Below, piece by piece: positions 16,441 to 46,596 of a stretch of DNA of 64,000 nucleotides. The notes below the pieces were generated by a model, which ran no database searches, was not told the origin of the DNA, and was given only the letters and a program-made list of their open reading frames with translations. Origin of the DNA: Variovorax flavidus (GTDB lineage Bacteria > Pseudomonadota > Gammaproteobacteria > Burkholderiales > Burkholderiaceae_C); NCBI RefSeq assembly GCF_030317145.1, contig NZ_JASZYE010000007.1, positions 1-64,000 of the forward strand, given 5' to 3'. Both the position numbers and the translations under genes were made by a program. Position 1 is the stretch's first letter. Each line of letters begins with the position of its first letter.

Positions 16441-16884
16441 TCAAGCCGCCAGATCCGGCGCGCCGCGCACGATCGCATCGCGCAGCGCCGCCGGGATCTC
16501 CACCGCCCGATGGCTGTCGAGCGATGTCGTGACCAGCACCTGGTGCATGCGCATGCGCGTTTCGCCCTGGTGGTCGAAGCAATGCAGCCCGAGGGTCAGC
16601 GAGCGCGTGCCCAGGCGCTCGACCGTGAGCCCGAGGACGACGCGGTCGCCCAGCCGGCTGACGGCGCGGAAGTCGGCCTCCAGGCGCACAGTGGGCAGGC
16701 CGATGCGCTGCTCGGCGATGAGCTTGTGGTAACCGATGCCCAGCTCTTCGTTGACCCAGTCTTCCACCAGGCCATTGAACATCACGAAGTACTGCGGGTA
16801 GAAGACGATGCCCGCCGGGTCGCAGTCCGAGAAACGGATGAGCCGCTCGCGGCGGAACTCCGCCGTCTTCTTCGATTCGCTCAC
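16441..16884 (-). CDS. 4-hydroxybenzoyl-CoA thioesterase family protein
   Basis: A 147-residue hot-dog-fold thioesterase. The RFSDCDPAGIVFYPQYFVMFN segment matches the 4-hydroxybenzoyl-CoA thioesterase active-site helix, including the catalytic Asp of the DPAG motif. The start is GTG, overlapping the marR stop as GTGA, so translation is probably coupled. It is the last gene of a three-gene unit SDR-marR-thioesterase. In an indoleacetate pathway a plausible substrate is 2-aminobenzoyl-CoA, giving anthranilate. That is inference from the locus; the family accepts many aroyl- and acyl-CoAs. Confidence 0.85.
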   Translation of the reverse strand: MSESKKTAEFRRERLIRFSDCDPAGIVFYPQYFVMFNGLVEDWVNEELGIGYHKLIAEQRIGLPTVRLEADFRAVSRLGDRVVLGLTVERLGTRSLTLGLHCFDHQGETRMRMHQVLVTTSLDSHRAVEIPAALRDAIVRGAPDLAA

Positions 16885-17420
16885 GCGCCTTCCTCCGCCG
16901 GCGGTTCGCCGCGCATCACATGCACCCGCAGCTGGCCGAGCTGGCTGTGCAGCTGGCGCACGGTCTTCATGTCGAGCCCCGCGAACATCTCCAGGATCCA
17001 TTGCTCGTGCTCCTTGGCCATCGCCTCGAAGCTGCGCCGGCCCTTGGGCGTGAGGCTGACAATCCATGCGCGGCGGTCGTCCGGGCTGGCGGTGCGCGAC
17101 ACCACGCCTTCGCGCTCCAGCTCGTCGGTGAGGCCGGTGACGTTGCCGCCGGTCACCATCAGGTAGCGCGAGAGCACGCGCATCTTGAGCCCGTCGCGGT
17201 AGCGGTAGAGCTGCGCCATGTAGTCGAAGCGCGCCAGCGTGATGCCGAAGCGCTCGCGCAGCCGCTTGCGGATTTCGGCCTCGATCTGCGTGGTGCTGGC
17301 CAGCATGCGCAGCCAGAGCTTGAGCACGGCGTGGTCTTCCTGCCCGGCACGCGCCTCGTGGCCGAGTTCCTCGGCATCGCTCAGCGCGGCGTGCGAGGGG
17401 TCGTTGCCGATGTCCGTCAT
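16881..17420 (-). CDS. MarR-family regulator (first of two in the locus)
   Basis: A 179-residue MarR-type winged-helix repressor. The DNA-recognition region is around residues 75-115 ([32 protein letters not shown]), followed by the family [14 protein letters not shown] wing. It lies between an SDR and a thioesterase gene with 4-bp overlaps on both sides, so it is made from the operon it may control. The operon head carries the TTNAS-NN-STNAA repeat. MarR proteins of auxin-degradation loci are known to sense indoleacetate or related aromatics; the ligand here is inferred. A second MarR sits at 42262-42792. Confidence 0.9.
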
Positions 17421-18190
17421 GTCACTTCTCCACCCGAGACCGAGATCGACTGCCCGGTCACCGACGCAGCGCCTTCGCCGCACAGCCAGCGCACGGCGTC
17501 CGCCACCTCTGCGGGCTGCACGATGCGGCGCTGCGGGTTCACGCCGGCAAACTCCGCCAGCGCATCGGCTTCGCTGCGGCCCGTCTTGCCGACCACGTTG
17601 GCGACGCTGGCACGCAGGATGTCGGTGTCGGTGTAGCCGGGGCACACCGCGTTGACCGTGACGCCCTTGCGCGCCACTTCGAGGGCGAGCGAGCGGGTAA
17701 GGCCGATCACGCCATGCTTCGCCGCCGTGTAGGCCGCGACATAGGCATAGCCCTTCTGGCCGGCGGTGCTCGCGATGTTGACGATGCGACCCCAGCCCGG
17801 TTCCAGCATGTCGGGCAACGCCGCCTGCGCGCACAGGAAGCTGCCCGTGAGATTGACCGCCAGCATGCGCTGCCAGAGTTCCAGCGATGTCTTCAGGAAA
17901 GGCGCGCTCTCGGCCTGCCCCGCGTTGTTGACCAGGATCGCCACCGGGCCCGAGGCCGTGCGCGCGGCGTCGAAGGCAGCACGCACCGAATCCGCATCGC
18001 CCACGTCGGCGACGAGTACGCCGTGGCCGGTGCCCGGCAGCTGGTCCTGCACGCGTTGCAGCGCCGCGCGGTCGCGGCCGAGCAGGCTGACGCGCGCTCC
18101 TTCTGCCGCCAGAGTCCTGGCGATTTCGGCGCCGATGCCGCGCGCGGCGCCTGTGACGACGGCATGCCGCCCATTCAGTGCTTGGCTCAT
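17417..18190 (-). CDS. SDR-family dehydrogenase (3-hydroxyacyl/alcohol type)
   Basis: A 257-residue classical short-chain dehydrogenase. The NAD-binding motif VTGAARGIG is near residue 13, NNAG at mid-protein, and the catalytic Ser and YTAAK lie in [20 protein letters not shown]. All catalytic residues are present. It resembles 3-hydroxybutyrate or 3-hydroxyacyl-CoA-type SDRs. It heads the small unit SDR-marR-thioesterase, with a TTNAS-NN-STNAA repeat 13 bp before the ATG. The ribosome site is poor. The substrate is unknown; oxidation of a hydroxyl intermediate such as dioxindole, or of a CoA ester, is possible. Confidence 0.88.
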
Positions 18191-18203
18191 GGATTGAATT
18201 TGG

Positions 18204-18215: not shown

Positions 18216-18254
18216 TAATTTTAACCGTTTGAATCTGCCGCACCCCGCCAGACT

Positions 18255-19004
18255 TCATCGCATCAGCCGACCACCGTTGAGATCGAGCGTCGCGCCCGTC
18301 GTGAAAGCACCGGCCGCCGACGCGAGGTAGACCACCGCCGCGGCCACCTCCTCCGCCTCGCCGAAGCGGCCGAGCGGAATCCCGGCCTGCACCGTGCGCT
18401 GCCGCGCCTCGTCCATGGCGTCGAGCACCGGGCCTCTGATTGCTGCGGGTGCGATCGCATTGACCGTGACGCCGTGCGGCGCGAGTTCCTGCGCGAACGA
18501 GCGCGTGAGCGCCAGGATGCCCGCCTTCGATGCGGCGTAGTGAACACCCGTCGCCGCACTGGCCTGCTGCCCCGCAATCGACGACAGGTTGACGATCCGT
18601 CCCGCGCCCCGGTCGCGCATGTGCCTTCCGGCGACCCGGCAGCCGAAGAAGGCGCCGCGCAGGTTCACGGCCATGACCTGGTCCCACTCGGCGACCGGAA
18701 TGTCCCAGAGCGAGGTCGACGGCGTCAGCGCGGCGTTGTTCACCATCACGTCGACCGCTCCGAAGCGTTGCACGGCGGATTCGAATCGTTGCGCAAAGGT
18801 GACCTCGTCGCGTACATCCAGCAGCATCGCGATGCATTCGTGCCCTGCGGCGCGAAGTTCGGCAGCAACGGCGTCGGCCGCAGCGACGTCGATATCCGTC
18901 AGCGCCACGCGCGCGCCTGCTCCAGCCAGTCCGCGCGCGATCGCGGCTCCGAGACCTTGCCCCGCGCCGGTCACGAAAGCCGTTCGTCCGGACAGCGAGA
19001 ACAT
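18255..19004 (-). CDS. SDR-family dehydrogenase
   Basis: A 249-residue classical SDR: VTGAGQGLG near the N terminus, NNAA at mid-protein (final Gly of NNAG replaced), and a catalytic LSSIAGQQ...YAASK set. It lies 4 bp after an acyl-CoA ligase and is the last gene of the transport/oxygenase unit that starts at 29769. It may oxidise a hydroxylated ring intermediate such as dioxindole to isatin, or a 3-hydroxyacyl-CoA. Sequence alone does not choose between these. It is distinct from the SDR at 17417 and the one at 29898, so the locus has three intact SDRs. Confidence 0.87.
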   Translation of the reverse strand: MFSLSGRTAFVTGAGQGLGAAIARGLAGAGARVALTDIDVAAADAVAAELRAAGHECIAMLLDVRDEVTFAQRFESAVQRFGAVDVMVNNAALTPSTSLWDIPVAEWDQVMAVNLRGAFFGCRVAGRHMRDRGAGRIVNLSSIAGQQASAATGVHYAASKAGILALTRSFAQELAPHGVTVNAIAPAAIRGPVLDAMDEARQRTVQAGIPLGRFGEAEEVAAAVVYLASAAGAFTTGATLDLNGGRLMR

Positions 19005-19008
19005 GGCG

Positions 19009-20619
19009 CTAGACCTTCGTCGCCTTGCGGCCGGCGGGACGCCGGTCCCACGTCTGCGGCGTCACGCCGCGTTCGCGCAGCTTGTACTTCTGCACCTTGC
19101 CGTTCTCGGTGCGCGGCAGGTCGGCCAGCACGTCGACATAGCGCGGCACGGCGAAGTAAGGCAGGCGTGCTTCGCAGAATCGAGTGAGTTCGTCCGGGTC
19201 GATGCGGCGATCGGGCCGGACCACCAGCGCGCACATCACCTCGTCTTCCGCCAGTTCGGAACGCACCGGATAGACCGCACAGGCAGCCACGCAGGGATGG
19301 CTCAGCAACACCTGCTCGACCTCGAAGGAGGAGATGTTCTCGCCCCGGCGCCGGATCGCATCCTTGATGCGGTCGACGAAGCGGAAGGCGCCGTCGGCAT
19401 CGCGCACCACGCGGTCACCCGTGTGGAACCAGAGATTGCGCCAGGCCTCGACGGTCTTCCCGGGCATGTTGAAGTAGCCGCTGGCGAAAGCGTAGGGCTC
19501 GTCCGCGCGCAGCAGCAGCTCGCCGGCTTCGCCGGGCGGCAGTTCGACGTCGTCCTCGTCGGCGACGCGCGCATCGAAACCCGGCCGCAGCCATCCCATC
19601 ACGCCGCCGCGCGGCGAGTCGGGCGCAGTGGCGATGGCGAAGTTGGTCTCGGTCGAGCCATAGCCTTCGAGCAACCGCACACCGGTGCGCTCCAAGAAGT
19701 CCTGCCCCGCCGCCGCCGGTACACCGGGACCCAGCCCGGTGCGGACGCGGTGATCGCGCTCGCCGGGCCCCTCGGGTTGCGCCAGCAGGATCGGCACCAT
19801 CGCGCCGAGCAGATAGACGACCGTCGCGCCGCTCGCACGCATCGCCGGCCAGAAGCCCGAGGCCGAGAAGCGCGACTCGAACACGACCTCGCAACCCGTG
19901 ATTGCCGCCTGCGCGAAGGTGTTGAGCGCATTGATGTGGAAGAGCGGCAGCGTGGTGCACAGCACGTCGTCGGCGTCGACGCCGAGCACCTCCGCGCTGT
20001 TCACACCCCACCAGAAATACTGCGCATGCGGGCAGACGACGCCCTTCGCCGGCCCGGTGGTGCCGGAGGTGTAGAGGATGGCGAGCGGATCGCCCGGCTG
20101 CACCGCGGCGGGCTCGATCGCTTCTGCGCCGGCCGGATACGGGGTCGAACGCACGCCCTCGGGGGCCTGCCAGGCGACGGATGCCTCCTGCGCTTCGCCG
20201 ACGACCCAGACTTCGCGCGGCTTCGTGCGCCCGAGATCGGCCGTCTTCAGCCGCTCCAGGAACTCCGCATCGATCACGAGCAGCTTCGCCTCGCTGTTGG
20301 CGAGGAAGTATTCGATCTGCGGCCCCATCGATGCCGTGTTGATCGGCACGACCGATGCACCGAGCCAACCCGCCCCGAAGAACACTTCCAGAAACTCGAT
20401 GCGGTTGCCGCACATCAGGGCGACCCGGTCCCCCCGCGCCACACCGGCTTGCGCGAGCACGGCAGCGCGCGCGCCTGCCGCATCGGCTGCATCCCCATGA
20501 GACCACGCGCGCCCCGCAATCCGGAGCAGCGGACGCCCCGCGAACTGCGCCGCCTGGCGCTGCAGCATGGCGGGCAGCGTGCGCTGCGATGGCAGCAGCG
20601 CGCGGGCCTCAGTCGTCAT
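19009..20619 (-). CDS. AMP-forming acyl/aryl-CoA ligase
   Basis: A 536-residue member of the ANL superfamily, which activates carboxylic acids to CoA thioesters via an acyl-AMP. The P-loop-like [12 protein letters not shown], the GYGSTETN motif, the hinge [20 protein letters not shown] and the C-terminal catalytic Lys in [13 protein letters not shown] are all present. I start at MTTEARALL, which overlaps the livF stop by 11 bp. It sits at the end of the ABC-importer operon, fitting capture of the imported acid as its CoA ester. Indoleacetate, its oxidised derivative or anthranilate are candidate substrates; the acid-binding pocket cannot be read reliably. Confidence 0.88.
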
Positions 20620-21340
20620 CGTGGGTGCCTCCGCCGAGATAGGTCGCCTGCACACGGGGATCGCTGGCGAGGTCTTGCGACGCGCCCGAGAGCGCGATCT
20701 CCCCGGTTTCCAGCACGTAGCCATGGTCCGAAGTTTCGAGCGCGGCGCGTGCGTTCTGCTCCACCAGCAGGATCGACACGCCGTCCTCGCGCAGCTTGCG
20801 CACGATGGTCAGGATGTCGCGCACGATCAACGGCGCGAGGCCCAGGCTGGGCTCGTCGAGCATCAGCAGGCGGGGTGCGGACATCAGCGCACGGCCCACG
20901 GCGAGCATCTGGCGCTCGCCGCCCGAGAGCGTGTCGGCGCGCTGCGCGCGGCGCTCGGCCAGGCGCGGGAAGCGGTCGTAGACGGATTGCAGCCGGCTCT
21001 TCAGCGCATCGCTGCGCAGGCGACGGGAGTAGGCGCCGAGCTGGAGGTTGTCGAGCACGCTCAGTTCGCCGAAGAGCTCGCGTTTCTCCGGCACGAGGCA
21101 CAGGCCACGCTCCACGCGCGCCTCGACGTCGAGGCCGTGCAGATCCTCACCCTCGAAGCGCAGGATGCCCTTGCACGGCAGCAACCCCATCGCCGCAGCC
21201 AGCAGCGTGGTCTTGCCCGCACCGTTAGGGCCGATCACGGAGATGATCTGGCCGTGCTCCAGGCTGAGCGTGACACCACGCACAGCATCCACTTGCCCGT
21301 AAGAAACGTGCAGATCCCCGATCTCCAACATGGCGGTCAT
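20609..21340 (-). CDS. ABC transporter ATP-binding protein, LivF type
   Basis: A 243-residue ATPase of the branched-chain amino acid (HAAT) class. Walker A is GPNGAGKTT, the signature is LSGGERQML and Walker B is [11 protein letters not shown]. It is the second ATPase of a Liv-type importer whose other parts are encoded immediately upstream (LivM-LivG fusion, LivH, and three binding proteins). The start overlaps the fusion gene stop by 4 bp (ATGA). A second in-frame ATG three codons in is equally possible. The importer likely carries an aromatic acid rather than branched-chain amino acids, judged by context. Confidence 0.92.
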
Positions 21341-23121
21341 ACGACGCTCCCGAGGTACGCAGCCTGCACACGCTCGTCCGCACGCACGGCCGACGGCACT
21401 CCTTCCACGAGCTTGGAGCCGAAGTTCATCACCACCAGCCGGTCCACCAGTTTCATCACGAAGTCCATGTCATGTTCGACGATGAGGATGGTCACGCCCT
21501 CCTCCCGCAGTTTGCGCAGCAGGTCGCCGAGCGCCATCTTTTCCTTGCGGCGCAAGCCGGCGGCCGGTTCGTCCAGCACCAGCAGCACCGGGTCGGCGGC
21601 GAGGGCACGCGCGATCTCCAGGATGCGCTGCGTGCCGAGCGGCAGGCTGCCCGCCAACTCATGGGAACGGTCGCCCAGGCCGATGCGGTCGAGCTGGCGC
21701 TGTGCTTCCTGCAGGATCTGGCGCTCTTCGGTGCGGTCCAGCCGCAGGCCGGCCTTGAGCACGCCCGTCGTGGTCCGCGAATGCGCGCCGAGCGCGACGT
21801 TGTCCAGCAGGCTCATGTGCGGCCGGAGCTTCACGTGCTGGAAGGTGCGTGCCAGACCGAGCCGCGCCACCTTGCGCTGCGGCAAGCCCGCGATGTCCTG
21901 GCCCAGGAAGCGCACCTGTCCCGCCGTCATCGGCAGCGTGCAGGTCAGCAGATTGAACATGGTCGACTTCCCCGCGCCGTTGGGCCCGATCAGCCCGACG
22001 ATCTCGCCGGCCTTCACGTCGAAGCTCACGTCGTTGACCGCCACCAACCCACCGAAGCGCTTCACGGCGCCCGTCACGGAGAGGATCGGCGACCCGCGGT
22101 CCGGCAGCGTGCGGTGCGGCAGCGGTTCCACCGGCGTGGTCGGCTCGCGCGACGGCGGCGCGGCGAAGCGACCCCGCGTCCAGCGCCGCACGAAGCCCAT
22201 CAGCCCGCCACGTGCAAAGTGCAGCAACAGGATGAAGAGCGTCGCGAAGGCCACGGCTTCGAGCTGGCCGGCGCGTTGCGTCAGCATCGGCAGCACGTCC
22301 TGCAGTCCGTTCTTCAGGATCAGCACCAGGGCAGAACCGACCAGCGCGCCCGCAAGCTGCCCGAGGCCGCCGGCCACTGCCATCAGCAGGTACTCGATGC
22401 TTGCCCGCACGTCGAAGGGCGACGGGCTCACGAAGCGATTCATGTGCGCATAGAGCCAGCCCGCGAGACCGGCGAACAGCGCGGCCGTGACGAACAGCGA
22501 GAGCCGCACGCGGTAGGCGTCCTCGCCCACGCTCGCGAGCAGCGTCGCGCCGCCTCGCAGGCTCCGGATGGCACGGCCCGGTCGCGATTCGAGCAGGTTG
22601 CGGCTGAACAGGAAGGCCAGCCCGACCAGCGCCCAGATCAGGTAGTAGATGGCGCGTGGGTCGGCCAGCGACCAGCCGCCGATCCTGAGTGCCGGGATGT
22701 TCGACAGACCCGTGTGGCGTCCCAGCGCATCGACGTTGCCGAACAGCATTGCGATCGACAGCCCCCACGCGATCGTGCTGAGCGGCAGGAAGTGCCCGCC
22801 CAGTCGCAAGGTGAGCATGCCGATAGCGAGCGCTGACAGCCCGGTCAGCAGCAGGGCGAACAGCAGCCCGATCCACGGCGACAAGCCTTGCGCGGTGGTG
22901 AGCCAGGCCGTCGCATAAGCCGCGATGCCGACGAAGGCCGCCTGCCCGAAGGAGGTGGCGCCCCCGATGCCGGTGAGCATCACCAGCCCGAGTGCGACGA
23001 GTGCGCCGATGCCGATGTCGTTCAGCAGCGAGACGGTGAAGTTGCCGGCCAGTGCGGGCACTATGGCAAGGGCCACCACGACGAGGCCGATCCAGAGCTT
23101 GCGTTGGACGAGCGGGCTCAT
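21337..23121 (-). CDS. LivM-LivG fused ABC permease/ATPase
   Basis: A 594-residue fusion of a LivM-type permease and a LivG-type ATPase. About residues 1-310 contain multiple hydrophobic segments (for example [53 protein letters not shown]), with the [12 protein letters not shown] stretch typical of LivM. From about 345 on there is an ATPase with Walker [10 protein letters not shown], signature [15 protein letters not shown] and Walker [13 protein letters not shown]. The linker is rich in Arg and Pro. It overlaps livH and livF by 4 bp each. Such fusions occur in several Burkholderiales importers. Confidence 0.92.
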
Positions 23122-24173
23122 TGGTCCACCTCGTCTTCTTCCTCTTCGGAGTGCACGCTGAGGAAGGACCTCAGCATCAGCACCGGTATGAGCAGGCTGA
23201 ACACGATCACATCCTTGAGCGCGCCGCTCCAGAACGACGCGAAACTTTCGACCACGCCCACTGCGAGGGCGCCAACGGCCGTCATCGGGTAACTCACGAG
23301 CCCGCCAATGATCGCGGCGACGAAGGCCTTCAGGCCGATGATGAAGCCGGAGTCGTAGTACATGGTGGTCACGGGCGCGATCAACACGCCGATCAACCCG
23401 GCCAGCAGCGATGCGCTGCCGTAGGCCAGCAAGGCAGTGCGCGCCGGCCGGATGCCGACCAGCCGCGCACCGACGCGGTTGACGGCGGTCGCGCGCAGCG
23501 CCTTGCCCGCCACCGTGCGTTCGAACACCAGGAAGAAGAGCCCGCTCAGCACGATCGCCGAGCCGACCATCAGCACCACCTGGCCACTGACCGAGAAGCC
23601 GTCACCCAGCGGGATGGTTCCGCTCGCCAGCGGCGCGGTGCGCGAGCCTTCCGGCCCGAAGAACAGCAGGCCCAGTCCCGACAGCAGGAAGTGCAACGCC
23701 AGCGACACGATCAGCAGCACCAGCACCGACGCATCCGCGATCGGCTGGAACACGACGCGCGCCAGCAGCGGCGCGATGGGAACCACGAGCAACACCGTCA
23801 CCGCGATCTGCACAGCCGCCGGCACGCCGGGCCGTGCGGTGGCCCAGGCCAGCACGCAGGGCAGCAGCGGCAGCACGCCCCAGGCCAGGATGGCCTTGGG
23901 CACCTTCTTCGCCTCTCCGCGCCGGATCAGGCTGCCGACCTCGGTCAACGTCGCCAGCACCGCCAGCACGATGACCAGCCCGATGGTGGGCGGAAGGCGG
24001 CCGGTCTCGAAGGCCGCCAGCGTCAGCGCGGCAAAGGCCGCGATGTCGCCGAAGGGCACGAACACCACCCGCGTGACGGAAAAAATCAGCACCAGTCCCA
24101 GCCCGGCAAGCAGATAGACCGCGCCATTGGCGAGCCCGTCGATGCCCAGGATGAGCGCCACGTCCCATGTCAT
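23118..24173 (-). CDS. ABC transporter permease, LivH type
   Basis: A 351-residue LivH-type membrane permease with at least eight hydrophobic segments. The N-terminal LILGIDGLANGAVYLLAGLGLVLIF segment is the usual LivH opening (GxxxGAVYALxALGL). The start ATG is 166 bp from the preceding binding-protein gene, and the gap is filled by a hairpin repeat. The C terminus is an acidic EEEEDEVDQ tail. Cytoplasmic loops between segments 4 and 5 carry the region that contacts the ATPases. It forms the import channel with the LivM half of the next gene. Confidence 0.9.
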   Translation of the reverse strand: MTWDVALILGIDGLANGAVYLLAGLGLVLIFSVTRVVFVPFGDIAAFAALTLAAFETGRLPPTIGLVIVLAVLATLTEVGSLIRRGEAKKVPKAILAWGVLPLLPCVLAWATARPGVPAAVQIAVTVLLVVPIAPLLARVVFQPIADASVLVLLIVSLALHFLLSGLGLLFFGPEGSRTAPLASGTIPLGDGFSVSGQVVLMVGSAIVLSGLFFLVFERTVAGKALRATAVNRVGARLVGIRPARTALLAYGSASLLAGLIGVLIAPVTTMYYDSGFIIGLKAFVAAIIGGLVSYPMTAVGALAVGVVESFASFWSGALKDVIVFSLLIPVLMLRSFLSVHSEEEEDEVDQ

Positions 24174-24227
24174 TGAAGAAATCCTCTGGGGTTGAACAAA
24201 GCTGCACGCAATGCGCTGCAGTGCGTG

Positions 24228-24316
24228 GGATGCCGCGGAACCGGCTTCGCCGGGCCGCAGGCATCGCCCCCTCGAAGGGGGTTGGCGGCCACACGAAGTG
24301 GGCAAGCCTGGGGGTG
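24228..24316. repeat. Intercistronic hairpin repeat, copy 1
   Basis: About 90 bp between a binding-protein gene and livH. It contains a strong stem (GATGCCGCGG...GGCATC, with an inner ACCGGCTTCGCCGGG arm), a CCCCCTCGAAGGGGG hairpin, then GGCCACACGAAGTGGGCAAGCCTGGGGGT. Copies of the same arrangement occur at 28521-28608, 37380-37468 and, inverted, 52200-52294. It may set the relative expression of the periplasmic protein and the permease by shielding or terminating the transcript. Confidence 0.75.
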
Positions 24317-24339: not shown

Positions 24340-25497
24340 TCATTGATCTAGCTTCCATTGACCGTTCTCCAGCTTGACGATCACGCGTGCGCGCTCGTCC
24401 ACGCCGTAGAGATTGCCCGGCTTGAAGTTGTAGACACCGTGCGTGCCGACGACTTCCTTGGTGCTCGCGATGGCATCGCGCAGCGAAAGCCTGAACTCGG
24501 GCGTGCCCGGCTCGCCCTTGGCGCGCGCGGCGGCATCGGTGAACACGAGCCAACCGTCGAAGGAATAGGCCGAGAAAGCATCGCTGGTCGGCGCGTTGTT
24601 GACCTTCTGGAACACCGAGCGGAAGTCCATCGCGATCTTCTTGGTGGGGTACTCGGCCGGCAGCTGCTCGGCCACGATCACCGGCCCGGTCGGCATCAGC
24701 GCGCCCTGCCCGGAGGCACCGACCACGCGCACGAAGTCCGGGTTGATGAGGCCGTGCTGGCCGTACACCGGGCCCTTGAATCCGCGCTCGGTCAGCGCGA
24801 GAAAGGGCAGCGCGCCCGGCGTGCCGGCGCCGCCGGTCATCACCGCGTCGGGCTTCATCGCGACCAGCTTCAGCACCTGGCCGGTGACGGATGCATCGGC
24901 GCGCGCATAGCGCTCGTTGCCCAGCACCTTGATGCCCGCCTCGGGGGCCGACTTCATCAGCGCGTTGTAGACCAGGTCGCCCCAGGCGTCGGAGAAGCCG
25001 ATGTAGCCGACCGTCTTGATCCCGTCCTTCTTCATGCGCTGCACGACCGCGTCGATCATGAGTTGCGTCGGCTGCGCGACGGTGAACACCCATGCGTTCT
25101 CGGCGGGGTCGAGCTGGATCGGCGTGAGGCCGATCATCGGCACCTTGGCATCGCGGCCGACCTGCGCCATCGCGATGGCGGCGGGCACACCGGAGGTGCC
25201 CATCAGGATGTCGACCTTGTCCTCTTCGACCAGCTTGCGCGCATTGCGGCCGGCCGTGGTCGGGTCGGAGCCGTCGTCCAGCACGATGAGCTGGATCTTC
25301 CGGCCGTTGACTTCGGGCTTGTACGCGAGGGCCGCCTGCATGCCCTTGGCGTAGGGCACGCCGAGCGAGGAGTTGGGGCCGGAGAGCGAAACGCTCAGGC
25401 CGACTTTGAGGTCGGCCGCGAACGCGCTCATGGCGAAGCCGGCGCCCAGTGCGGCGGCCAACGCGGTGCGCGTCAAGGTCTGCATCAAGCTCTTCAT
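24340..25497 (-). CDS. ABC transporter substrate-binding protein 1 (LivJ/Leu-binding type)
   Basis: A 385-residue type-I periplasmic binding protein with a signal peptide (MKSLMQTLTRTALAAALGAGFAMSAFA, cleavage before ADLKVG). The mature protein starts DLKVGLSVSLSGPNSSLGVPYAKG, typical of aromatic-acid-binding members of the family. Motifs such as GTSGVPAAIAMAQVGRDAKVPM and YIGFSDAWGDLVYNALMKSA recur in the two paralogues at 27350 and 28612, so all three arose by duplication. It is the copy nearest the permease genes. The ligand is probably indoleacetate or a breakdown product, by context. Confidence 0.9.
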   Translation of the reverse strand: MKSLMQTLTRTALAAALGAGFAMSAFAADLKVGLSVSLSGPNSSLGVPYAKGMQAALAYKPEVNGRKIQLIVLDDGSDPTTAGRNARKLVEEDKVDILMGTSGVPAAIAMAQVGRDAKVPMIGLTPIQLDPAENAWVFTVAQPTQLMIDAVVQRMKKDGIKTVGYIGFSDAWGDLVYNALMKSAPEAGIKVLGNERYARADASVTGQVLKLVAMKPDAVMTGGAGTPGALPFLALTERGFKGPVYGQHGLINPDFVRVVGASGQGALMPTGPVIVAEQLPAEYPTKKIAMDFRSVFQKVNNAPTSDAFSAYSFDGWLVFTDAAARAKGEPGTPEFRLSLRDAIASTKEVVGTHGVYNFKPGNLYGVDERARVIVKLENGQWKLDQ

Positions 25498-25537: not shown

Positions 25538-26005
25538 TCAGATGAACAACTGAATGGCCGGCAGTGCGCGCCCGGCGTTGAGAAGGTCGATCCGCTTCTG
25601 GCGGATGGCCCAGCCGTCAGGCGTGCGCACGAGGCGGTGACGGCAGGTGCCGGCGAGCAGGATCTGGTCGTCCCCGCGCGCCTCGACGTAGATGAAAGGC
25701 GTGCGCAGCGTGATCTCGCCGGTTGCCCCGTCCTCGTGCTCGACGGCGGAACGCTGCAGCACGTGCTGGCTATGGCTCGCAGGATGCTGCGAATGCGCGC
25801 GAGGATTCTTCAGGCGGTCGACTCGCAACTGCAGCAGCAGCCGGTCTTCGTAGGCCAGGGAGTTGTGGGAGTACGGGTCCGCCTGAGCCGCGCCGAGCAG
25901 CGGCACCCAGTAGTGGCCGTCTTCGGTGAACAGCGCCAGCCAGTCGTCGAAGCGGCCGGCGTCCAGCAGCGCGGCCTCGGCGGCGATGAAGTCTTCCGGC
26001 TGCAT
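25538..26005 (-). CDS. Rieske oxygenase beta subunit, pair 1
   Basis: A 155-residue small (beta) subunit of an aromatic-ring-hydroxylating oxygenase. The core LLDAGRFDDWLALFTEDGHYWVPL and the C-terminal RKRIDLLNAGRALPAIQLFI are typical. The ATG shares its A with the last base of the alpha-subunit stop (TGATG), so expression is coupled. Beta subunits support the alpha3beta3 hexamer and have no metal site. It is paralogous to the beta subunit at 35507; both end in LPAxQLFI. Confidence 0.88.
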   Translation of the reverse strand: MQPEDFIAAEAALLDAGRFDDWLALFTEDGHYWVPLLGAAQADPYSHNSLAYEDRLLLQLRVDRLKNPRAHSQHPASHSQHVLQRSAVEHEDGATGEITLRTPFIYVEARGDDQILLAGTCRHRLVRTPDGWAIRQKRIDLLNAGRALPAIQLFI

Positions 26006-29769: not shown

Positions 29770-29811
29770 GCAAACCTCCAGGGGGTGAACAAGCACATGA
29801 TTTATGAACTA

Positions 29812-35499: not shown

Positions 35500-35506
35500 G
35501 GCTTGC

Positions 35507-37478: not shown

Positions 37479-38471
37479 CTAGATGTCCAGCACCAGCCGC
37501 TGTCCCTTGATGCGCGAGATGCAGATCTGCATGACGTTGCCCTCGGCCTTCTCGCGCGCGGTCAGCACATAGTCGCGATGGTCGATCTCGCCTTCGAGCA
37601 CCGGCGTCGCGCACACGCCGCATTCGCCACGCTTGCAATCGAACATCGGATCGCAGCCGTGCTCGATCAGGCAGTCGAGGATGCTCTGGTCGGCCGGCAC
37701 CGTGAATCGCTGGCCGGATTGGGCGAGCTCGACCTCGAAGGCGTGGTCGCCCTCCTCCACCACCGGCGTGGTGAAAAGCTCGAAGTGCACGCGGTCATGG
37801 GTCCAGCCGCGCGCCTGGGTCTGGGCGAGTACGGCGTCGAGCATGACCTTGGGTCCGCACACGTAGAGCCGGTCGCCCGCCGGAATGCCATCGAGCAGCG
37901 CGCCGATGTCGAAGGCGCCGCCACGCTCGACATCCGAGTGGACGAGCAGGTCATCGCCCAGCACGGCTTGCAGTTCGGGCAGGAAAGCCATCAGCTCGCG
38001 GCTGCGGCCGGCGTAGTGCATGCGCACCGGCAGGCCTTCGGCGCGGCGGCGCGTTGCCATGCTCGCCAGCGGCGTCACGCCGATGCCGCCGGCCAGCAGC
38101 ACGGTGCCGCCGGGGCCGGTGTGCAGCGGGAAGTCGTTCTTCGGCACTTCGATGGTGACGAGGTCGCCTTCGCGCAGCCGCTTATGCATGAAGCGCGAGC
38201 CGCCGCGGCCTTCATCCTCCTTGCGCACTGCGATGACGTAGTCGGTGGGCGCATCGGTGGCATCGGCCTGCGTGCCGAAGTTGATCAGCGAGTAGTGGCG
38301 CCAGTCCTGCTTGCCGTCCGGCAACTGGACCTGGATGCGGATGTGCGCGCCGGCGGTGTAGCCGGGCAGCACGCCGCCGCCGACTGCGGCCAGCCGGAAG
38401 GTCTTGATCAGCGGATTGAGTTCACGCGCCTCGACGACGCGCATTTGCAGGGTGGCGGGCTGGGCAGACAT
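37479..38471 (-). CDS. Flavin and 2Fe-2S oxygenase reductase
   Basis: A 330-residue reductase of the phthalate dioxygenase reductase type: an N-terminal flavin domain (RHYSLINFGT), a NAD-binding domain (LLAGGIGVTPLASM and YVCGPKVMLDAV) and a C-terminal plant-type 2Fe-2S domain with CKRGECGVC and a distal Cys in MQICISR. It passes electrons from NADH to the Rieske centre. The start MSAQPATLQM is 16 bp after iorB. It is the only such reductase in the locus and probably serves both oxygenase pairs. Confidence 0.93.
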   Translation of the reverse strand: MSAQPATLQMRVVEARELNPLIKTFRLAAVGGGVLPGYTAGAHIRIQVQLPDGKQDWRHYSLINFGTQADATDAPTDYVIAVRKEDEGRGGSRFMHKRLREGDLVTIEVPKNDFPLHTGPGGTVLLAGGIGVTPLASMATRRRAEGLPVRMHYAGRSRELMAFLPELQAVLGDDLLVHSDVERGGAFDIGALLDGIPAGDRLYVCGPKVMLDAVLAQTQARGWTHDRVHFELFTTPVVEEGDHAFEVELAQSGQRFTVPADQSILDCLIEHGCDPMFDCKRGECGVCATPVLEGEIDHRDYVLTAREKAEGNVMQICISRIKGQRLVLDI

Positions 38472-38487
38472 GGGCAGGATTTCCGGA

Positions 38488-39981
38488 TCAGGCGAGCGCG
38501 TGCTGGGCCAGCGCGGCGCGCAGTTTGTGGCCGTGTTCGTCGGCGAGCGCCGCGTCGCGCAGCTCGCGCAGCGTGGCGGGCGCGATGGCCGTGCCGGCGC
38601 GCTGCAAGGCATCCATCACGGTGTCGTAATTGCGCAGGCCGCGCTCGTGGGTGTCGCTGTAGCCCTTGACGAGCCGCTGGCACTGCGCGACTTCGACGGC
38701 GAGCGCAGGGTTGTCCGCGGCGATGTCGGCGATGCGCTTCAGCCACTCCTCGATTCGGCGGTTTTCCTCGGCGTAGCGCAAGGTCGAACGGCGCCAGCGC
38801 TTCATCCCGGCGACGGTACTGAGCATCAGGTAGCCGCGCAGCGAGCTGGTCTGGATCACGCGGCCTTGTTGCGTGAGGCGTTCGACCAGCTTGCGCGGCC
38901 AGGTGGAGTTCATCAGCCAGCGGCCGAAGCCAGCCGGCAGGGTCTCGCAGATTTCCTGCAGGCGCGGGTGCATGTATTCGTTGATGGCGAGCACCTGGCC
39001 GTCCTGCACGCGGGCTTCGCCGCGCACGCGCTCGAAACGCGATGAGCGGGTCTTGAGGGCAGCGACGCGGGCGGTGTCTTCGTAGGACATCCAGAGCGCG
39101 AGATGGCGCGCCGTTTCGCGCAGCAGGCGGCCTTCGTCCTTGCCCGACAAGGCAGCGATGGCGGCCATGCGGTCGAGATAGAGGCCTGCGTAGTCGACGT
39201 CCTGGTAGTCGATCAACTTGCGCACGCCTTCAAGCAGCAGGTAGTGCGCGGTGGACGGAAAGTCGCGCTGTACGCGCTCCACCAACGCGCGCACTGCAGG
39301 GTGGCGCGGTTGCGGTGCCGGGACTTCAGCCACCGGTGCCTCCGGCTCCAGTGCGCCCTGCGCGCGTGCGAAGGCCGCGCCAAAGGCTTTCAGGCTCGGC
39401 TTGACGCCGACCCCGCCGCGCTCGATGGTCGCCTCGAACTGCGCCCGACCGAAAGGCAGGACACCCGCGCCGGCCAGCGCACCAAAGAGCACCGCGCTGA
39501 TCACGCTGCCCGCCGCTTCCGCGGCCTGCGCCATGTCGAAGCGGATGAAGCGCTTCGCTGCGCGCTCGGCATGCGCCAGCAGTTCAGCGCTGTCGACCCG
39601 GCCGTCGCCCATCGCGCTCTTCTCCGCGATCGAATAGACACGGTGGGTCGATGCGATGAAGGTCGTGCGGTCGCGCGTGACGAGACCGCGCTGCACGGCG
39701 CGGCCGGCTTCCATCAGCTCCGATGCGAGCACGACGTCGACATCTCCCGGCAGCGGCATGAGCGCCAGCACGGGCTTCCCGCCATCGGCTTCCGCTTGCG
39801 CCTCGGGATAAAGCTCGACGTAGTAGATCGTGGCGCCGGTGCGCTGGGCGACGCCCGGCACGGAGGTGGTCTGGGCAACGTAGCCGTTGGCCTCGCCCAT
39901 ATCCACGATCCAGTCGGCAAGCACGCCGCCCCCTTCGCCGCCCATGGCAAGGATCGCGATCTTGATAGGTTGTTGTCGCAT
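38488..39981 (-). CDS. iorB: Indolepyruvate ferredoxin oxidoreductase beta-type subunit with C-terminal extension
   Basis: A 497-residue protein whose first ~200 residues are the IorB gamma-type domain of 2-oxoacid:ferredoxin oxidoreductases (IAILAMGGEGGGVLADWIV and the SVPGVAQRTGATIYYVELYP motif). The remaining ~280 residues form a helical, Arg-rich domain not present in classical archaeal IorB (about 200 residues) but seen in longer bacterial members. I use the ATG at 39981 (MRQQPIKIAILAMGG); an in-frame GTG three codons earlier is too close to the iorA stop for a good ribosome site. It works with IorA on an aryl 2-oxoacid; isatinate is inferred. Confidence 0.85.
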   Translation of the reverse strand: MRQQPIKIAILAMGGEGGGVLADWIVDMGEANGYVAQTTSVPGVAQRTGATIYYVELYPEAQAEADGGKPVLALMPLPGDVDVVLASELMEAGRAVQRGLVTRDRTTFIASTHRVYSIAEKSAMGDGRVDSAELLAHAERAAKRFIRFDMAQAAEAAGSVISAVLFGALAGAGVLPFGRAQFEATIERGGVGVKPSLKAFGAAFARAQGALEPEAPVAEVPAPQPRHPAVRALVERVQRDFPSTAHYLLLEGVRKLIDYQDVDYAGLYLDRMAAIAALSGKDEGRLLRETARHLALWMSYEDTARVAALKTRSSRFERVRGEARVQDGQVLAINEYMHPRLQEICETLPAGFGRWLMNSTWPRKLVERLTQQGRVIQTSSLRGYLMLSTVAGMKRWRRSTLRYAEENRRIEEWLKRIADIAADNPALAVEVAQCQRLVKGYSDTHERGLRNYDTVMDALQRAGTAIAPATLRELRDAALADEHGHKLRAALAQHALA

Positions 39982-39993
39982 CGGATTCACTCT

Positions 39994-42248: not shown

Positions 42249-42261
42249 TGTATTCACAATC

Positions 42262-42792
42262 ATGAATAACCCTAGACATGCAAGCAGCGTGCCCGCCGAG
42301 GGTCAGGGACCATTCACCGACGAGGAGCCCGTCGGGGCACTCCGCTTCGTCGATGACTACCTGCCGGCGCTCCTGGCGCAGGCGAGCCAACTCATCTCCT
42401 CGGAGTTCCACCAGGTGGCGCGCCAGCACGGGTTTTCAGTTTCGGAATGGCGGGTGATGGCATCGCTGGCGGGCGGCGAGCCGATCAGCATCGGGCAGCT
42501 CGCACAGATCACCGTGACCAAGCAGCCGACGGTGACGCGACTGCTGGACCGGATGGAGGCGCGTGAACAGGTCGAGCGCCTGCCCCACGACAGTGATCGG
42601 CGTGTCACTCTGGTGCGCATCACGCGCAAGGGTGCGAAGGCGGTGGAACACCTGATGGAACTGGCCCGCGAGCACGAGCGGCGCGTGCTCGAACCCTTCG
42701 GGCTCCAGCGCGCGGAAGAACTCAAGAGCACGCTGCGCCACATCATCGAATTGCACGCAGGGGCACCGGCAGAGGCGCCGGACGCGGAGTAA
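42262..42792 (+). CDS. MarR-family regulator (second of two; likely master repressor)
   Basis: A 176-residue MarR regulator. The winged-helix region is about residues 60-115 (SVSEWRVMASLAGGEPISIGQLAQITVTKQPTVTRLLDRMEAREQVERLPHDSDRRVTLV). It is divergent from iorA with the candidate operator overlapping its own promoter, the usual design of an autoregulated MarR switch. MarR regulators of auxin-degradation loci are known to release DNA on binding indoleacetate. Its N-terminal 30 residues are unusually acidic and polar. Gene end is 4 bp from the convergent oxidoreductase gene. Confidence 0.92.
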   Translation: MNNPRHASSVPAEGQGPFTDEEPVGALRFVDDYLPALLAQASQLISSEFHQVARQHGFSVSEWRVMASLAGGEPISIGQLAQITVTKQPTVTRLLDRMEAREQVERLPHDSDRRVTLVRITRKGAKAVEHLMELAREHERRVLEPFGLQRAEELKSTLRHIIELHAGAPAEAPDAE

Positions 42793-42796
42793 GCCG

Positions 42797-43741: not shown

Positions 43742-44538
43742 GCCAGTGTCTCCAGGAATTCGAGCACTGCTTGCGCAAAGGGGCCGGGCAGCTGGTCGGG
43801 CAAGGGCACCATGCCGCCTTCGATCTCGACGATGCGCGCGTTCGAGAGTTGCTCGCACAGTTCGGCGGCGTGCAGCGAAGCGAACGGGTCGTCGGTGGCA
43901 CGAATGATCAGCGTCGGATGTGCGATGCGATGAATGCGGTCCTCCATCCGATAGGCCGCGACTGCGCGGTGGCCGTCTTCGGGTCCGCCACTCGCCTTCA
44001 AGGCATCGAGCACGAAGGCTTGGAGCAGGTCGGGGCGGTTGGCCGGATAGAAGCCCTGGCGCCGCTGCCACAGGGCGGCAAGATGGGTGCCGTCTTCGCT
44101 GGCTTCGACCTCGTCGATCGGCGGGCGCCCGGCGCGCGCGAGGCGGAAGGCTTCATGGGTGAACGGCGTCGACGACAGCACCAGCCCGCGCACCCGTTCG
44201 GGAAACGCCGCGGCCAGCTCGACCGCGATGACACCGCCGGTGTGATGGCCCACCACGTCGGCGCGCTCGATGCCCAGCGCGTCGAGCAGTTCCCGCGCCA
44301 CTCCGGCCCATTGCTCGATACTCGCCGGCAAGCCGCCTGCCTCGGAATCGCCGAAACCGGCTGTGTCCATCGCGATCGCCCGGTAGTGCGAACCGATCAA
44401 GGGCAGCACCTCGCGGTATTCGACCCAACTGCGCGGCGACTGGTGCAGCAGCATCACGGCCGGCGCATCCGGATCACCGCACTCGGCGTAGTGGACCTGC
44501 CCTGCCGAGAGGTCGGCGAATGCGCGCCGGATCTTCAT
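43738..44538 (-). CDS. Alpha/beta-hydrolase-fold protein with altered catalytic residues
   Basis: A 266-residue alpha/beta-hydrolase. The nucleophile elbow GxSxG reads GHHTG with His99 in place of Ser. The usual late GH motif reads EGGMVPLP, with Met243 in place of the catalytic His; an Asp pair at 216-217 remains. The oxyanion HG motif is HQSP. The normal Ser-His-Asp triad is therefore absent. The fold itself is clear (AIAMDTAGFGDS, LVLSSTPF). It may be a cofactor-free lyase, a non-hydrolytic member or a binding protein. Overlaps with both neighbours are 4 bp, showing tight coupling within the operon. Confidence 0.82.
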   Translation of the reverse strand: MKIRRAFADLSAGQVHYAECGDPDAPAVMLLHQSPRSWVEYREVLPLIGSHYRAIAMDTAGFGDSEAGGLPASIEQWAGVARELLDALGIERADVVGHHTGGVIAVELAAAFPERVRGLVLSSTPFTHEAFRLARAGRPPIDEVEASEDGTHLAALWQRRQGFYPANRPDLLQAFVLDALKASGGPEDGHRAVAAYRMEDRIHRIAHPTLIIRATDDPFASLHAAELCEQLSNARIVEIEGGMVPLPDQLPGPFAQAVLEFLETLA

Positions 44539-45533
44539 TCGCGCGTCGCTTCCGCGGGTGGCTGCCACAGCCCCACATGCTTGAGCATGCCGAGGGTTCG
44601 CGAGAGCACGTCGCGCCGGTACGCCCCGACGTCGCGCCCCTCGTACTCGTAGAAGCCGCTGCCGCTTTTCAGGCCCAGCCGGCCTTCCTCGACCATGCGG
44701 TCCACGATGGCAGGTGCGGTGTAGCGGGCGCGGTCGATGGACGCCGCCATCTCGCGGCTCGCGTGATGGAGGATGTCGCAGCCGCCGAAGTCGATGAACT
44801 CGACCACGCCGAGTGCCGCGAACCGCAGCCCGAGGCCGTAGCGCGTGGCCTTGTCGATCTCTTCCGCTGTGGCAGCGCCCTCCTCGATCATGCGCGCCGC
44901 CTCGTTCATCACCAGCGCCTGCAATCGCGGCACGATGTAGCCCGGCGACGCGCCACAGACAACCGGCAGCTTGCCGATGGCTTCCATCAGGGCCTTGGTG
45001 CGCTCGAGCACCGCGGCATCGGTGCCGGGATGACAGCTGAGCTCGACCACCGGGATCACGTACGCCGGATTGAGCCAGTGCATGTTGAGAAAGCGCTCCG
45101 GCCGATGCACCAGCGCCGCCAGTTGCGTCACGAGGATGCTGCTGGTGGTGGAGGTGAGGATCGCGTCTTCGCGGCAATGCCTGTTGATGTGCTCGAAGGC
45201 CTCGCGCTTGGCTTCGAGCGTCTCGGGGACGCCCTCGAAAACCAGCTCGGCGGCTGCCAGCGCGGCAGGCGCATGGGCTGCGTCGACGATGTCGACACGC
45301 GCAGCAATGGCTCGGACCTGGGCAGCGTCGATCACGCCGAGCTGTGCCAGGCCCGAAAGACTGGCTTCGATTTCCGCCTGGGCCTCGCCTTGCAGCTTCC
45401 GCCATGCCTCGTCGCTGCGCGGACGCAGATCGACCAGCGAGATGCGGTGTCCGGCGTAGGCGAATGCGATCGCGATGCCGCGCCCCATCCGTCCCGCGCC
45501 GACCGCAGCGAAGCGGGGAAGCTCATTCCCCAT
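44535..45533 (-). CDS. 3-hydroxyacyl-CoA dehydrogenase family protein
   Basis: A 332-residue NAD-dependent dehydrogenase. The nucleotide motif is VGAGRMGRGIA near the N terminus. ELVFEGVPETLEAKREAFEHI and TSTTSSILVTQLA follow, and the family His motif appears as NMHWLNPAYVIPVVEL. A second helical dimerisation domain starts around residue 190 (GYIVPRLQALVMNEAARM). It is similar in design to L-gulonate and 3-hydroxybutyryl-CoA dehydrogenases. It overlaps the preceding octopine-dehydrogenase-like gene by 11 bp. The substrate is probably a hydroxy acid or hydroxyacyl-CoA of the pathway. Confidence 0.87.
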   Translation of the reverse strand: MGNELPRFAAVGAGRMGRGIAIAFAYAGHRISLVDLRPRSDEAWRKLQGEAQAEIEASLSGLAQLGVIDAAQVRAIAARVDIVDAAHAPAALAAAELVFEGVPETLEAKREAFEHINRHCREDAILTSTTSSILVTQLAALVHRPERFLNMHWLNPAYVIPVVELSCHPGTDAAVLERTKALMEAIGKLPVVCGASPGYIVPRLQALVMNEAARMIEEGAATAEEIDKATRYGLGLRFAALGVVEFIDFGGCDILHHASREMAASIDRARYTAPAIVDRMVEEGRLGLKSGSGFYEYEGRDVGAYRRDVLSRTLGMLKHVGLWQPPAEATRE

Positions 45534-46596
45534 CGTGCAGCCTTTGCTTGAGTTGTGCCGGCGTCAGGCTGGCGAGGCCGAGCGACTCGAGCGTGCGCGG
45601 CCCCTTGCGCAGATCGCGGCCGAGGAAGCCGCCGACGATCGCCAGCAGGCCATGCGCGATCGGCGCATCGACCCCGACGAAGCGCGCGGTCGACGCGAGA
45701 AAGGCGAGCCCGAGTTCCGTGTCCTCGGTGATGTAGCGGTGCGTATGGAGGTCGATGTTCTCGCGCCAGTCGCCCGACTTCACCAATTGCTTGTGCGCAT
45801 CGCCGTACATCCACTGGTCGTTGTTGTAGTGGTCGGCCAGCGGATAGTGCGGGGCTCCCTGGCCCAAGGCCTCGCGCACGGCAATGCGTTCCTGGTCGAG
45901 CCGGTCGGTCACGTCGCGCACGGCACGCTGGGTGCCTTCGTTGTGGATGTCCCAACGCTCGAAGTGCTGCAGCGGCGCGGCGTTCATGACCATCAACGGT
46001 GGGTGGATGACGGGGCCGGCGTTCATCAGCGCACCCGACAGCGCATCGCCACAGCCATGCACGCTCGAGTAGGCCTTGCGGATCACCTCGATGGCTTCGC
46101 GCTCCTTGCGCGCCGGGTACACACCGGTGGGCAGGCGGATGGCGCGGATGGTCACGTTCACTTCGCGCTCGCCGTGCTTGCGTGCCAGGTAGGGCAAGGT
46201 GCCGGTCTCGGCCCAGGCCACATCGGCGCGGTTGCCCGCTTCCTTCACGAGCCGCGCCATCACGTAGCTGCCGAAGGTGCCGGGCGGCAGGAACACGACC
46301 TGGCCGTCGATCAGGTGCGGGGCCATCGCACGGGCGATGTCTTCCTGCGCGATCGCCGGCGTGGGGATGACGATCAACTCCGCACCCCGCATGGCGGCAC
46401 CGATGTCGGCGGTCGCCAGCGCGATCGGCACGTCACGGGAACCGGCCGCGTCCTTCAAGGTGATGGAACCGGCCTTGGCGACCGGCTCCAGCGCGCCCGC
46501 GTCGCGGCGCCACAGACGCACTTCATGATCAGCTTCGGACAGGTCCGCGGCAGCCGCATAGGCGCCGTGGCCGCCGCCGAGAATGGCGATTTTCAT
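45523..46596 (-). CDS. Octopine/nopaline dehydrogenase-family protein
   Basis: A 357-residue NAD(P)-dependent enzyme, first gene of the first operon. The N terminus MKIAILGGGHGAYAAAADL is a Rossmann motif with a His seen in the octopine dehydrogenase family. The C-terminal NAGPVIHPPLMVMNAA and HYNNDQWMYGDAHKQLV stretches match the octopine dehydrogenase catalytic domain. Family members make or split N-(carboxyalkyl) amino acids. An enzyme releasing indoleacetate from an amino-acid-like conjugate, or one acting on a side chain, is possible. Neither is shown by sequence. Confidence 0.8.
   Translation of the reverse strand: MKIAILGGGHGAYAAAADLSEADHEVRLWRRDAGALEPVAKAGSITLKDAAGSRDVPIALATADIGAAMRGAELIVIPTPAIAQEDIARAMAPHLIDGQVVFLPPGTFGSYVMARLVKEAGNRADVAWAETGTLPYLARKHGEREVNVTIRAIRLPTGVYPARKEREAIEVIRKAYSSVHGCGDALSGALMNAGPVIHPPLMVMNAAPLQHFERWDIHNEGTQRAVRDVTDRLDQERIAVREALGQGAPHYPLADHYNNDQWMYGDAHKQLVKSGDWRENIDLHTHRYITEDTELGLAFLASTARFVGVDAPIAHGLLAIVGGFLGRDLRKGPRTLESLGLASLTPAQLKQRLHDGE

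Follow-up and report, generated by a model that had tools for sequence, protein, structure and literature searches.

Within a 64,000-nucleotide stretch of the 6.6-Mb Variovorax flavidus genome (contig NZ_JASZYE010000007.1, positions 1 to 64,000; hereafter, the window), the block at positions 16441-46596 is, as identified by homology, the Variovorax iad locus (HS33) for loss of the auxin indole-3-acetate. The locus itself is already published; what is new is a reassignment of two of its products, IadG and IadH, and the recognition of a second Rieske oxygenase pair, D2/E2, as a conserved orphan. Comparisons of sequences and predicted structures make it probable that IadG and IadH form a retro-aldolase that would split the coenzyme A (CoA) ester of dioxindole-3-acetate (DOAA) into isatin and acetyl-CoA, with isatin passed to the isatin hydrolase IadI.

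The identity of the locus follows from three sets of matches. A search for relatives of IadD (35992-37305) returned mainly Variovorax, with a top identity of 99% to Variovorax sp. J22P240 and J22R24; the top Protein Data Bank (PDB) matches of window proteins are the Variovorax IadDE, MarR_73, and IadK2 structures; and the divergent regulator iadR keeps contact residues of MarR_73. The gene order is MarR_73, iadA-B-C-D-E-F-G-H-I-J-K2-K3, Liv importer, and a distal half. In V. paradoxus CL14, the core iadC-K2 comprises nine genes in the order reductase, Rieske alpha, Rieske beta, acyl-CoA synthase, acetyltransferase, dehydrogenase, kynurenine-formamidase-like, dehydrogenase, and binding protein (PMC12633357), and the window carries all nine in identical order. 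They are preceded by iadA, iadB, and the divergent MarR gene, matching the published arrangement; iadA (iotA) and iadB (iorB) are the published iad markers (PMC9613470). As far as the published text gives it, CL14 has the same order of MarR_73, A-J, K2, and K3; this comparison was made through that text and gene counts, and D2/E2 is not discussed in the sections of PMC9613470 and PMC12633357 on which it draws. Like iac-type auxin loci, the iad locus serves aerobic indoleacetate loss through DOAA (PMC9613470), but the window, unlike iac-type loci, has the iad markers. Confusingly, the name iad has also been applied to another cluster, an iac-like one from Pseudomonas sp. LY1 (PMC8383072).

The original prediction, made from the sequence alone, had read this block as an auxin locus of the Variovorax iad type, a reading that the IadD and MarR_73 homology and the PDB matches uphold. 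It had listed two Rieske oxygenase pairs, a single reductase, two CoA ligases, an isatin-hydrolase-type cyclase, IorAB, a 4HBT thioesterase, dehydrogenases, a Liv-type importer with three binding proteins, and two MarR genes. Frame statistics and Pfam and NCBIfam searches confirmed them all: the Rieske pairs are alpha/beta pairs, the CoA ligases are AMP-dependent, the cyclase (PF04199) is a clear isatin hydrolase relative, there are several dehydrogenases, the importer consists of LivH, a fused LivM-LivG, and LivF, and both MarR genes are above the Pfam cut-off. The comparison of gene order with Variovorax iad loci that it called for shows matching order. It also held that the block supplies a candidate for each step but named none for side-chain removal, a gap that IadG-IadH would fill. 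The list was without the thiolase-like gene at 32708-33880 and the DUF35 fusion at 31461-32711, which, judged by sequence, are most likely the two side-chain removers. The regulator and the genes up to K3 are as follows (fractions of 20 refer to a set of Variovorax genomes described below).

42262-42792, plus strand: iadR, MarR_73 orthologue divergent from iadA; top PDB match 7kfo, 277.8 bits
39994-42177, minus strand: iadA, subunit of an IorA-type thiamine pyrophosphate (TPP) enzyme; Fe-S motif CVGCGVC; TIGR03336 at 286.6 bits, below cut-off; 20/20 genomes
38488-39990, minus strand: iadB, IorB-type subunit; NF006179 at 741.3 bits, above cut-off
37479-38612, minus strand: iadC, reductase of the oxygenase; Fer2 and weak FAD/NAD domains; adjoins iadD as published
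35992-37305, minus strand: iadD, Rieske alpha subunit attacking indoleacetate; 9o71, 931.8 bits
35507-35992, minus strand: iadE, beta subunit, with Met 45 of the ORF taken as its start; Ring_hydroxyl_B
33877-35541, minus strand: iadF, CoA ligase, likely on DOAA; AMP-binding; order as published
32708-33880, minus strand: iadG, thiolase-fold protein, putative retro-aldolase; Gly87, YDDY at 283-286, Gln328 and Gln333 in 72/72
31461-32711, minus strand: iadH, fusion of DUF35 (a zinc finger and an OB fold) with a decayed short-chain dehydrogenase/reductase (SDR); zf-ChsH2 36-70, OB_ChsH2_C 72-136, adh_short 171-361
30629-31444, minus strand: iadI, isatin hydrolase; 5nna (isatin hydrolase A), 373.4 bits; 62% to the cyclase of Roseibium aggregatum
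29898-30632, minus strand: iadJ, SDR dehydrogenase with intact motifs (TGGSAGIG and YSATK)
28612-29796, minus strand: iadK2, indoleacetate-binding protein; 7ylt, 722.5 bits; Trp of DAWGDL kept
27350-28495, minus strand: iadK3, paralogous binding protein; 71% to K2; published Trp-to-Leu and Ser-to-Val pocket changes

The entry to the route agrees with published work. The best-ranked PDB relatives of IadD are Variovorax IadD 9o71 and 7yls/8h2t, and its ten iron and pocket residues (Asn210, Leu211, His216, His221, Phe251, His311, Lys322, Arg329, Tyr362, and Asp377; residue list from PMC10374108) are all kept in the window and invariant in 80/80 homologues. The oxygenase gene that the original prediction proposed to delete is iadD, and in effect the experiment has been done in CL14, where iadDE deletion abolishes indoleacetate loss and iadDE alone restores it (PMC9613470). 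IadC-IadDE is reported there to be a monooxygenase that adds one oxygen, IadJ yields C10H9NO4, or DOAA, and deleting iadF, iadG, iadH, or iadI cuts anthranilate; the authors inferred the F-G-H steps from annotation, with IadG as a ketothiolase and IadH as an alcohol dehydrogenase (PMC12633357).

The residues of IadG do not fit a ketothiolase. Read from alignments to the thiolases 7yvy and 7pxp and the aldolases 9myr and 6ok1, all 72 homologues have Gly87 for the nucleophilic cysteine, Gln333 for the histidine of GHP, and Tyr283, within YDDY, for the histidine of HDxF (the set is 72 of 80 named loci; in the rest, the gene is truncated, absent, or below 90% cover or 60% identity). The same Gly/Tyr/Gln trio is found in 6/6 distant orthologues (61-66% identity) and in Roseibium aggregatum. 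With neither the nucleophilic cysteine nor the catalytic histidines of EC 2.3.1.16, IadG, to judge from its sequence, cannot be an ordinary thiolase; as a control, the one other IadG relative found in the same genome (L086; E 1e-5) retains the cysteine, HD, and GHP.

The replacements point to an aldolase. In the bile-acid aldolase Sal, catalysis involves Tyr302 and Cys304, with a supporting role proposed for Gln347 and Gln352 (PMC12329534); by motif and spacing, Tyr302, Gln347, and Gln352 correspond to IadG Tyr283, Gln328, and Gln333. Among 35 non-orthologous relatives of IadG, only L090 and L100 combine YDxY with both glutamines. They have YDCY and, nearby, a Cys-x3-His-x8-Cys-x2-Cys finger, which is particular to Shy (PMC12329534) and makes them probable Sal loci. 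In a FastTree tree of 9 IadG proteins and 36 relatives, IadG is sister to L090/L100 (support 0.843). With an AlphaFold2 model of IadG (mean predicted local distance difference test, pLDDT, 75.5), the top VIA match was the Sal-Shy(DUF35) aldolase 9myr (Z 41.0, root mean square deviation 3.0, 368 aligned) and the third was Ltp2-ChsH2(DUF35) (Z 39.2); Foldseek ranked Sal first (1.4e-26) and Ltp2 second. IadG thus shares with these steroid side-chain aldolases a thiolase fold, the absence of a nucleophilic cysteine, the tyrosine of YDxx, the Sal-type glutamine pair, and a DUF35 partner. It differs from them in having YDDY rather than YDCY or YDHF and in its presumed substrate, an oxindole. The benzoylsuccinyl-CoA thiolase BbsAB is also similar in fold (7pxp, 108.5 bits) and has a DUF35 partner (PMC12329534), but in the alignment BbsB retains both the cysteine and the HD motif, and IadG has neither.

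The partner would be IadH. Its C4 finger (residues 48-65) is kept in 71/71 close, 6/6 distant, and 1/1 Roseibium homologues (71 of the 80 loci, with the rest set aside on the same grounds as for IadG), and its Pfam matches zf-ChsH2 and OB_ChsH2_C make it, on sequence, a putative DUF35 zinc-finger partner of the Sal/Ltp2 type; both Sal and Ltp2 are aldolases bound by a DUF35 domain. In those systems, DUF35 is fused to a MaoC hydratase, whereas in IadH it is fused to an SDR that has lost the classical TGxxxGxG and YxxxK motifs. The window protein reads TDGKTEVG and FSASK, and Phe replaces the catalytic Tyr in 68/71 homologues. YxxxK is intact in 3/71 close homologues (L055, L063, and L080, whose Gly-rich motif is broken), 0/6 distant ones, and 0/1 from Roseibium; it is broken in varied ways across the seven distant proteins, as expected without selection on SDR catalysis. 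IadJ and the two distal SDRs, unlike IadH, keep both motifs.

These features suggest the following route. IadF would make DOAA-CoA, with its C3 hydroxyl beta to the thioester, and IadG, bound to the DUF35 portion of IadH, would cleave it by retro-aldol reaction to isatin and acetyl-CoA, with Tyr283 as the base and with Asp285 and the pair Gln328/Gln333 standing in for the known acids. This cleavage would need neither thiolysis nor NAD(P)H, and the SDR portion of IadH would be a noncatalytic remnant or scaffold. DOAA-CoA is a beta-hydroxyacyl-CoA with its hydroxyl on the quaternary C3; thiolysis requires a beta-keto group, which this carbon cannot carry. Thiolysis is therefore unsuited to DOAA-CoA, whereas a retro-aldol reaction gives isatin and acetyl-CoA. 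A full-text literature search, with most subscription journals outside its coverage, did not find an aldolase reading of IadG or IadH, and the term "aldol" has zero occurrences in the preprint PMC12633357.

Several observations weigh against this assignment. Most of the 72 IadG homologues are near relatives and not independent, and all 35 fetched non-orthologous relatives from other genomes of the family (37 listed) also have Gly at the nucleophile site, so loss of the nucleophile alone is not decisive for an aldolase. The grouping with L090/L100 is only moderately supported. In the IadG model, residues 326-337, which include Gln328 and Gln333, have a pLDDT of <50, and the second VIA match, 1.1 under Sal at Z 39.9, is the putative thiolase 4u4e, which has Gly at the nucleophile site too. 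The proton donors Cys304 of Sal and Tyr344 of Ltp2 are not conserved, IadG having Asp285 and Gln333; with neither acid present, IadG would be neither Sal nor Ltp2 proper but a third type, if it is an aldolase. The IadH model is poor (mean pLDDT 64.8), and its fold matches listed span ~162-416, the SDR half only, with DUF35 absent among them, so the DUF35 call rests on Pfam and the finger motif. DUF35 also seemed unimportant for Ltp2 activity (PMC11321319), which leaves the need for iadH incompletely explained. Finally, C8H7NO2 (dioxindole), not isatin, accumulates without IadI, with IadH read as a reductase (PMC12633357), and dioxindole has been placed before isatin in Bradyrhizobium (Jensen 1995 as cited in PMC8383072). 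By formula balance, DOAA minus acetate is isatin, C8H5NO2, and two more hydrogens give the C8H7NO2 of the preprint; this compound can thus be read as reduced isatin, and the dioxindole seen in mutants would be the reduction product of isatin that has backed up.

The published scheme, in which IadG as a ketothiolase and IadH as an alcohol dehydrogenase, together with IadF, would remove the side chain reductively to dioxindole, accounts for the deletion phenotypes of iadF to iadI and for the C8H7NO2 that accumulates without IadI (PMC12633357). The thiolase fold of IadG agrees with it, as do its NCBIfam matches, which are named acetyl-CoA acetyltransferase, lipid-transfer protein, or thiolase and are all below cut-off, and the three IadH proteins that retain YxxxK. 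We nevertheless regard this scheme as unlikely: the thiolase nucleophile and both histidines are absent from every IadG in the set, the SDR motifs are broken in nearly all IadH proteins, and the steps were assigned from annotation to a substrate that has no beta-keto group. It is likewise improbable that IadG-IadH carries out other C-C chemistry, with a CoA ester from before or after this point as its substrate, while isatin arises by another route; most relatives in the Cys-less thiolase-like clade are without known activity, and the G-H-I trio occurs in two genomes without an IadD homologue (E 1e-40), so that its natural substrate may exceed auxin, but the Sal-like residues, the sister position to Sal-like proteins, and the constant pairing with an isatin hydrolase speak for the aldolase. 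A chance assembly or annotation artefact is ruled out by the recurrence of gene order and block ends across genomes.

The two genomes without IadD (G374 and G492, of another family) hold relatives of iadF-G-H-I together (L169 and L170), and from sequence this module may serve other oxindoles. Ten annotated neighbors of G-H-I there comprise luciferase-like, racemase, ABC transporter, hydratase/3-hydroxyacyl-CoA dehydrogenase, and old-yellow-enzyme-type proteins and three without a family, and they outline no clear pathway. The 35 Cys-less thiolase-like proteins of L087-L121 have the motifs YDAF, YDSF, YDCF, YDHF, YDSY, YDCY, and YDGF, with a DUF35-like finger motif within ~1.5 kb for 31 of them; some may be unrecognised aldolases.

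The step after the proposed retro-aldol cleavage has a clear candidate. IadI carries the isatin hydrolase metal motif HxG[T/A]HxDxPxH (PMC6117287) as HTGTHFDAPIH and would open isatin to isatinate. In each of the 70 named loci with all of iadG, iadH, and iadI, these genes stand together in this order, as they do in 6/6 distant genomes. A plasmid cluster of Roseibium aggregatum (NZ_CP045623.1; L175, 5072-13924) has the same order, MarR-C-D-E-F-G-H-I-J, and its IadG relative keeps YDDY and the glutamine pair. It differs from the window in having a TRAP transporter where the window has Liv; neither IorAB nor D2/E2 is among the genes listed in 21 kb, in a gene table that can be incomplete. This species is presumably the same as Labrenzia aggregata. 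Isatin hydrolases A and B of L. aggregata have been solved and assayed (PMC6117287). An IadG relative (E 1e-80) occurs in 36 plasmid records, 14 of them from Sulfitobacter, and fragmentary iad-like clusters have been reported in Sphingomonas (PMC11630574).

For IadAB, a TPP keto-acid oxidoreductase by type, we can only guess that it may help convert isatinate, an aryl glyoxylate, to anthranilate or anthraniloyl-CoA. C8H7NO3 and C7H7NO accumulate when iadC-K2 is overexpressed in strains devoid of iadAB, which continue to form anthranilate (PMC12633357); the buildup is compatible with IadAB acting on isatinate, but overexpression explains it equally. A search of the genome for anthranilate 1,2-dioxygenase (TIGR03228) gave five matches, none above cut-off, with other anthranilate routes outside the search.

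The arrangement is conserved beyond chance, as judged from the order of iadC to iadJ, which is the same in 63/80 named loci, and from both block ends, which recur in 20 Variovorax genomes chosen for long contigs from 57 with a match. The 20-genome comparison covered the two ends; the iadE-iadK2 stretch rests on the 80-locus count. The other 17 loci are short of a gene in iadC-iadJ; many of them are cut short by a contig border, and some (e.g., L064 and L069) are genuinely different. Beyond the MarR gene lie four further genes:

42797 to ~43741, minus strand: zinc-type oxidoreductase; 18/20 genomes
43738 to ~44538, minus strand: alpha/beta hydrolase; 19/20 genomes
44535-45533, minus strand: 3-hydroxyacyl-CoA dehydrogenase; 20/20 genomes
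45523-46596, minus strand: octopine-dehydrogenase-like, at the locus edge; 20/20 genomes

By numbering inferred from gene counts, these four fit CL14 genes 74-77. The HS33 deletion in CL14 took genes 77-53, or 25 genes (PMC9613470, PMC12633357), a size that fits the four genes plus the operon. The flanking genes are much less constant (helicase and exonuclease in 12/20 genomes, the gene at 13664 in 2/20), and the borders first drawn at 16441 and 46596, both gene ends, therefore coincide with the conserved block. Its least constant members are the SDR at 18255-19004, the thioesterase, and the second MarR gene; in one of the 20 genomes (G021; L128 and L148), the stretch taken is without E2, 17417-18190, the second MarR gene, and the thioesterase.

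The part of the locus beyond K3 holds the second Rieske pair and the following genes.

26005-27330, minus strand: second Rieske alpha (D2); 59% to iadD
25538-26005, minus strand: second Rieske beta (E2); Ring_hydroxyl_B; 19/20 genomes
24340-25497, minus strand: third binding protein (K1 here); 7ylt, 549.8 bits; 20/20 genomes
20609-24305, minus strand: Liv importer of LivH, LivM-LivG fusion, and LivF; 20/20, 19/20 (plus one with the gene in two pieces), and 20/20 genomes
19009-20724, minus strand: second CoA ligase; NF004808 at 870.2 bits, above cut-off; 34% to iadF; 20/20 genomes
18255-19004, minus strand: SDR dehydrogenase, both motifs kept; 11/20 genomes
17417-18190, minus strand: SDR dehydrogenase, both motifs kept; 19/20 genomes
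16881-17420, minus strand: second MarR, in a position like MarR_50 (iadR2); Pfam MarR at 39.3 bits against a cut-off of 24.6; 16/20 genomes
16441-16884, minus strand: 4HBT thioesterase by Pfam/NCBIfam; 15/20 genomes

D2 orthologues (43 of the 80 loci at cut-offs of 90% cover and 72% identity, with many flanks ending near D2) keep the Rieske and iron ligands in 43/43, but in the pocket of all 43 His311 is changed to Gln and Leu211 to Ile or Val. With looser cut-offs, D2 has a place of its own in 56/80 loci. D2 and IadD occur in the same 57/61 Variovorax genomes, and the other 4 show neither (E 1e-100); the IadD count of 57 is based on rows of 58-61% identity, of which G032 and G043 each have two. 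Gene counts suggest that CL14 has D2/E2, among its genes 60-51. If so, the loss of indoleacetate breakdown upon deletion of iadDE alone suggests that D2/E2 does not substitute for IadDE there. A third Rieske alpha gene (G000:C29:22804-24087) shares 39% identity with D2 and has a beta-subunit match alongside, and similar copies of 39-44% identity account for 29 rows in the Variovorax genome search.

What the distal half does may be a separate matter from auxin. It is possible, if on balance doubtful, that it mainly serves another aromatic acid and shares just transport and regulation with auxin loss, which would be compatible with the retro-aldolase reading of IadG-IadH. D2/E2, the second CoA ligase, the two SDRs, K1, and K3 are without an assigned role, and in CL14 the genes iadC-K2 are enough for anthranilate (PMC12633357). 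In some non-Variovorax iad loci (L063, L081, L082, L174, and L175), the stretch seen contains no D2, so D2 is dispensable for the core route; in Variovorax, on the other hand, the distal half nearly always accompanies the core. 2-Oxindole-3-acetate is the plant's own auxin breakdown product. IadK3, for which the pocket changes noted above have been described, binds this compound weakly (PMC10374108), and on that basis we guess it to be one candidate substrate of D2/E2. More tentatively still, the locus could be a funnel with two entries, in which IadDE would take indoleacetate and D2/E2 a second plant indole acid (e.g., 2-oxindole-3-acetate or a substituted auxin), both leading to an ester of the dioxindole-acetyl-CoA type that the IadG-IadH aldolase would split to isatin and acetyl-CoA; as a whole, we think this scheme rather unlikely.

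Regulation and uptake follow the published pattern. With a numbering offset of 18 set by us and the contact list of PMC9613470, iadR keeps 6/7 indoleacetate contacts of MarR_73 (Y33, A36, S46, H50, W63, and R64), and the Val65 equivalent is Ile83; together with the 7kfo match, this makes it a divergent auxin-sensing MarR. IadR of a relative is reported to repress until indoleacetate is bound, and IadK2 of a relative is reported to bind indoleacetate. An operator search between iadR and iadA found short palindromes only.

The iad locus is a model for auxin removal by root bacteria that spares the plant, and its steps matter for engineered strains; D2/E2 is a strongly conserved oxygenase pair within this well-studied locus. 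If IadG-IadH is an aldolase, the steps given in the preprint change: there would be no thiolysis and no reductant, isatin would be the direct product, and acetyl-CoA would be the carbon gain. An aldolase module of the steroid type would then be placed in the breakdown of a hormone.

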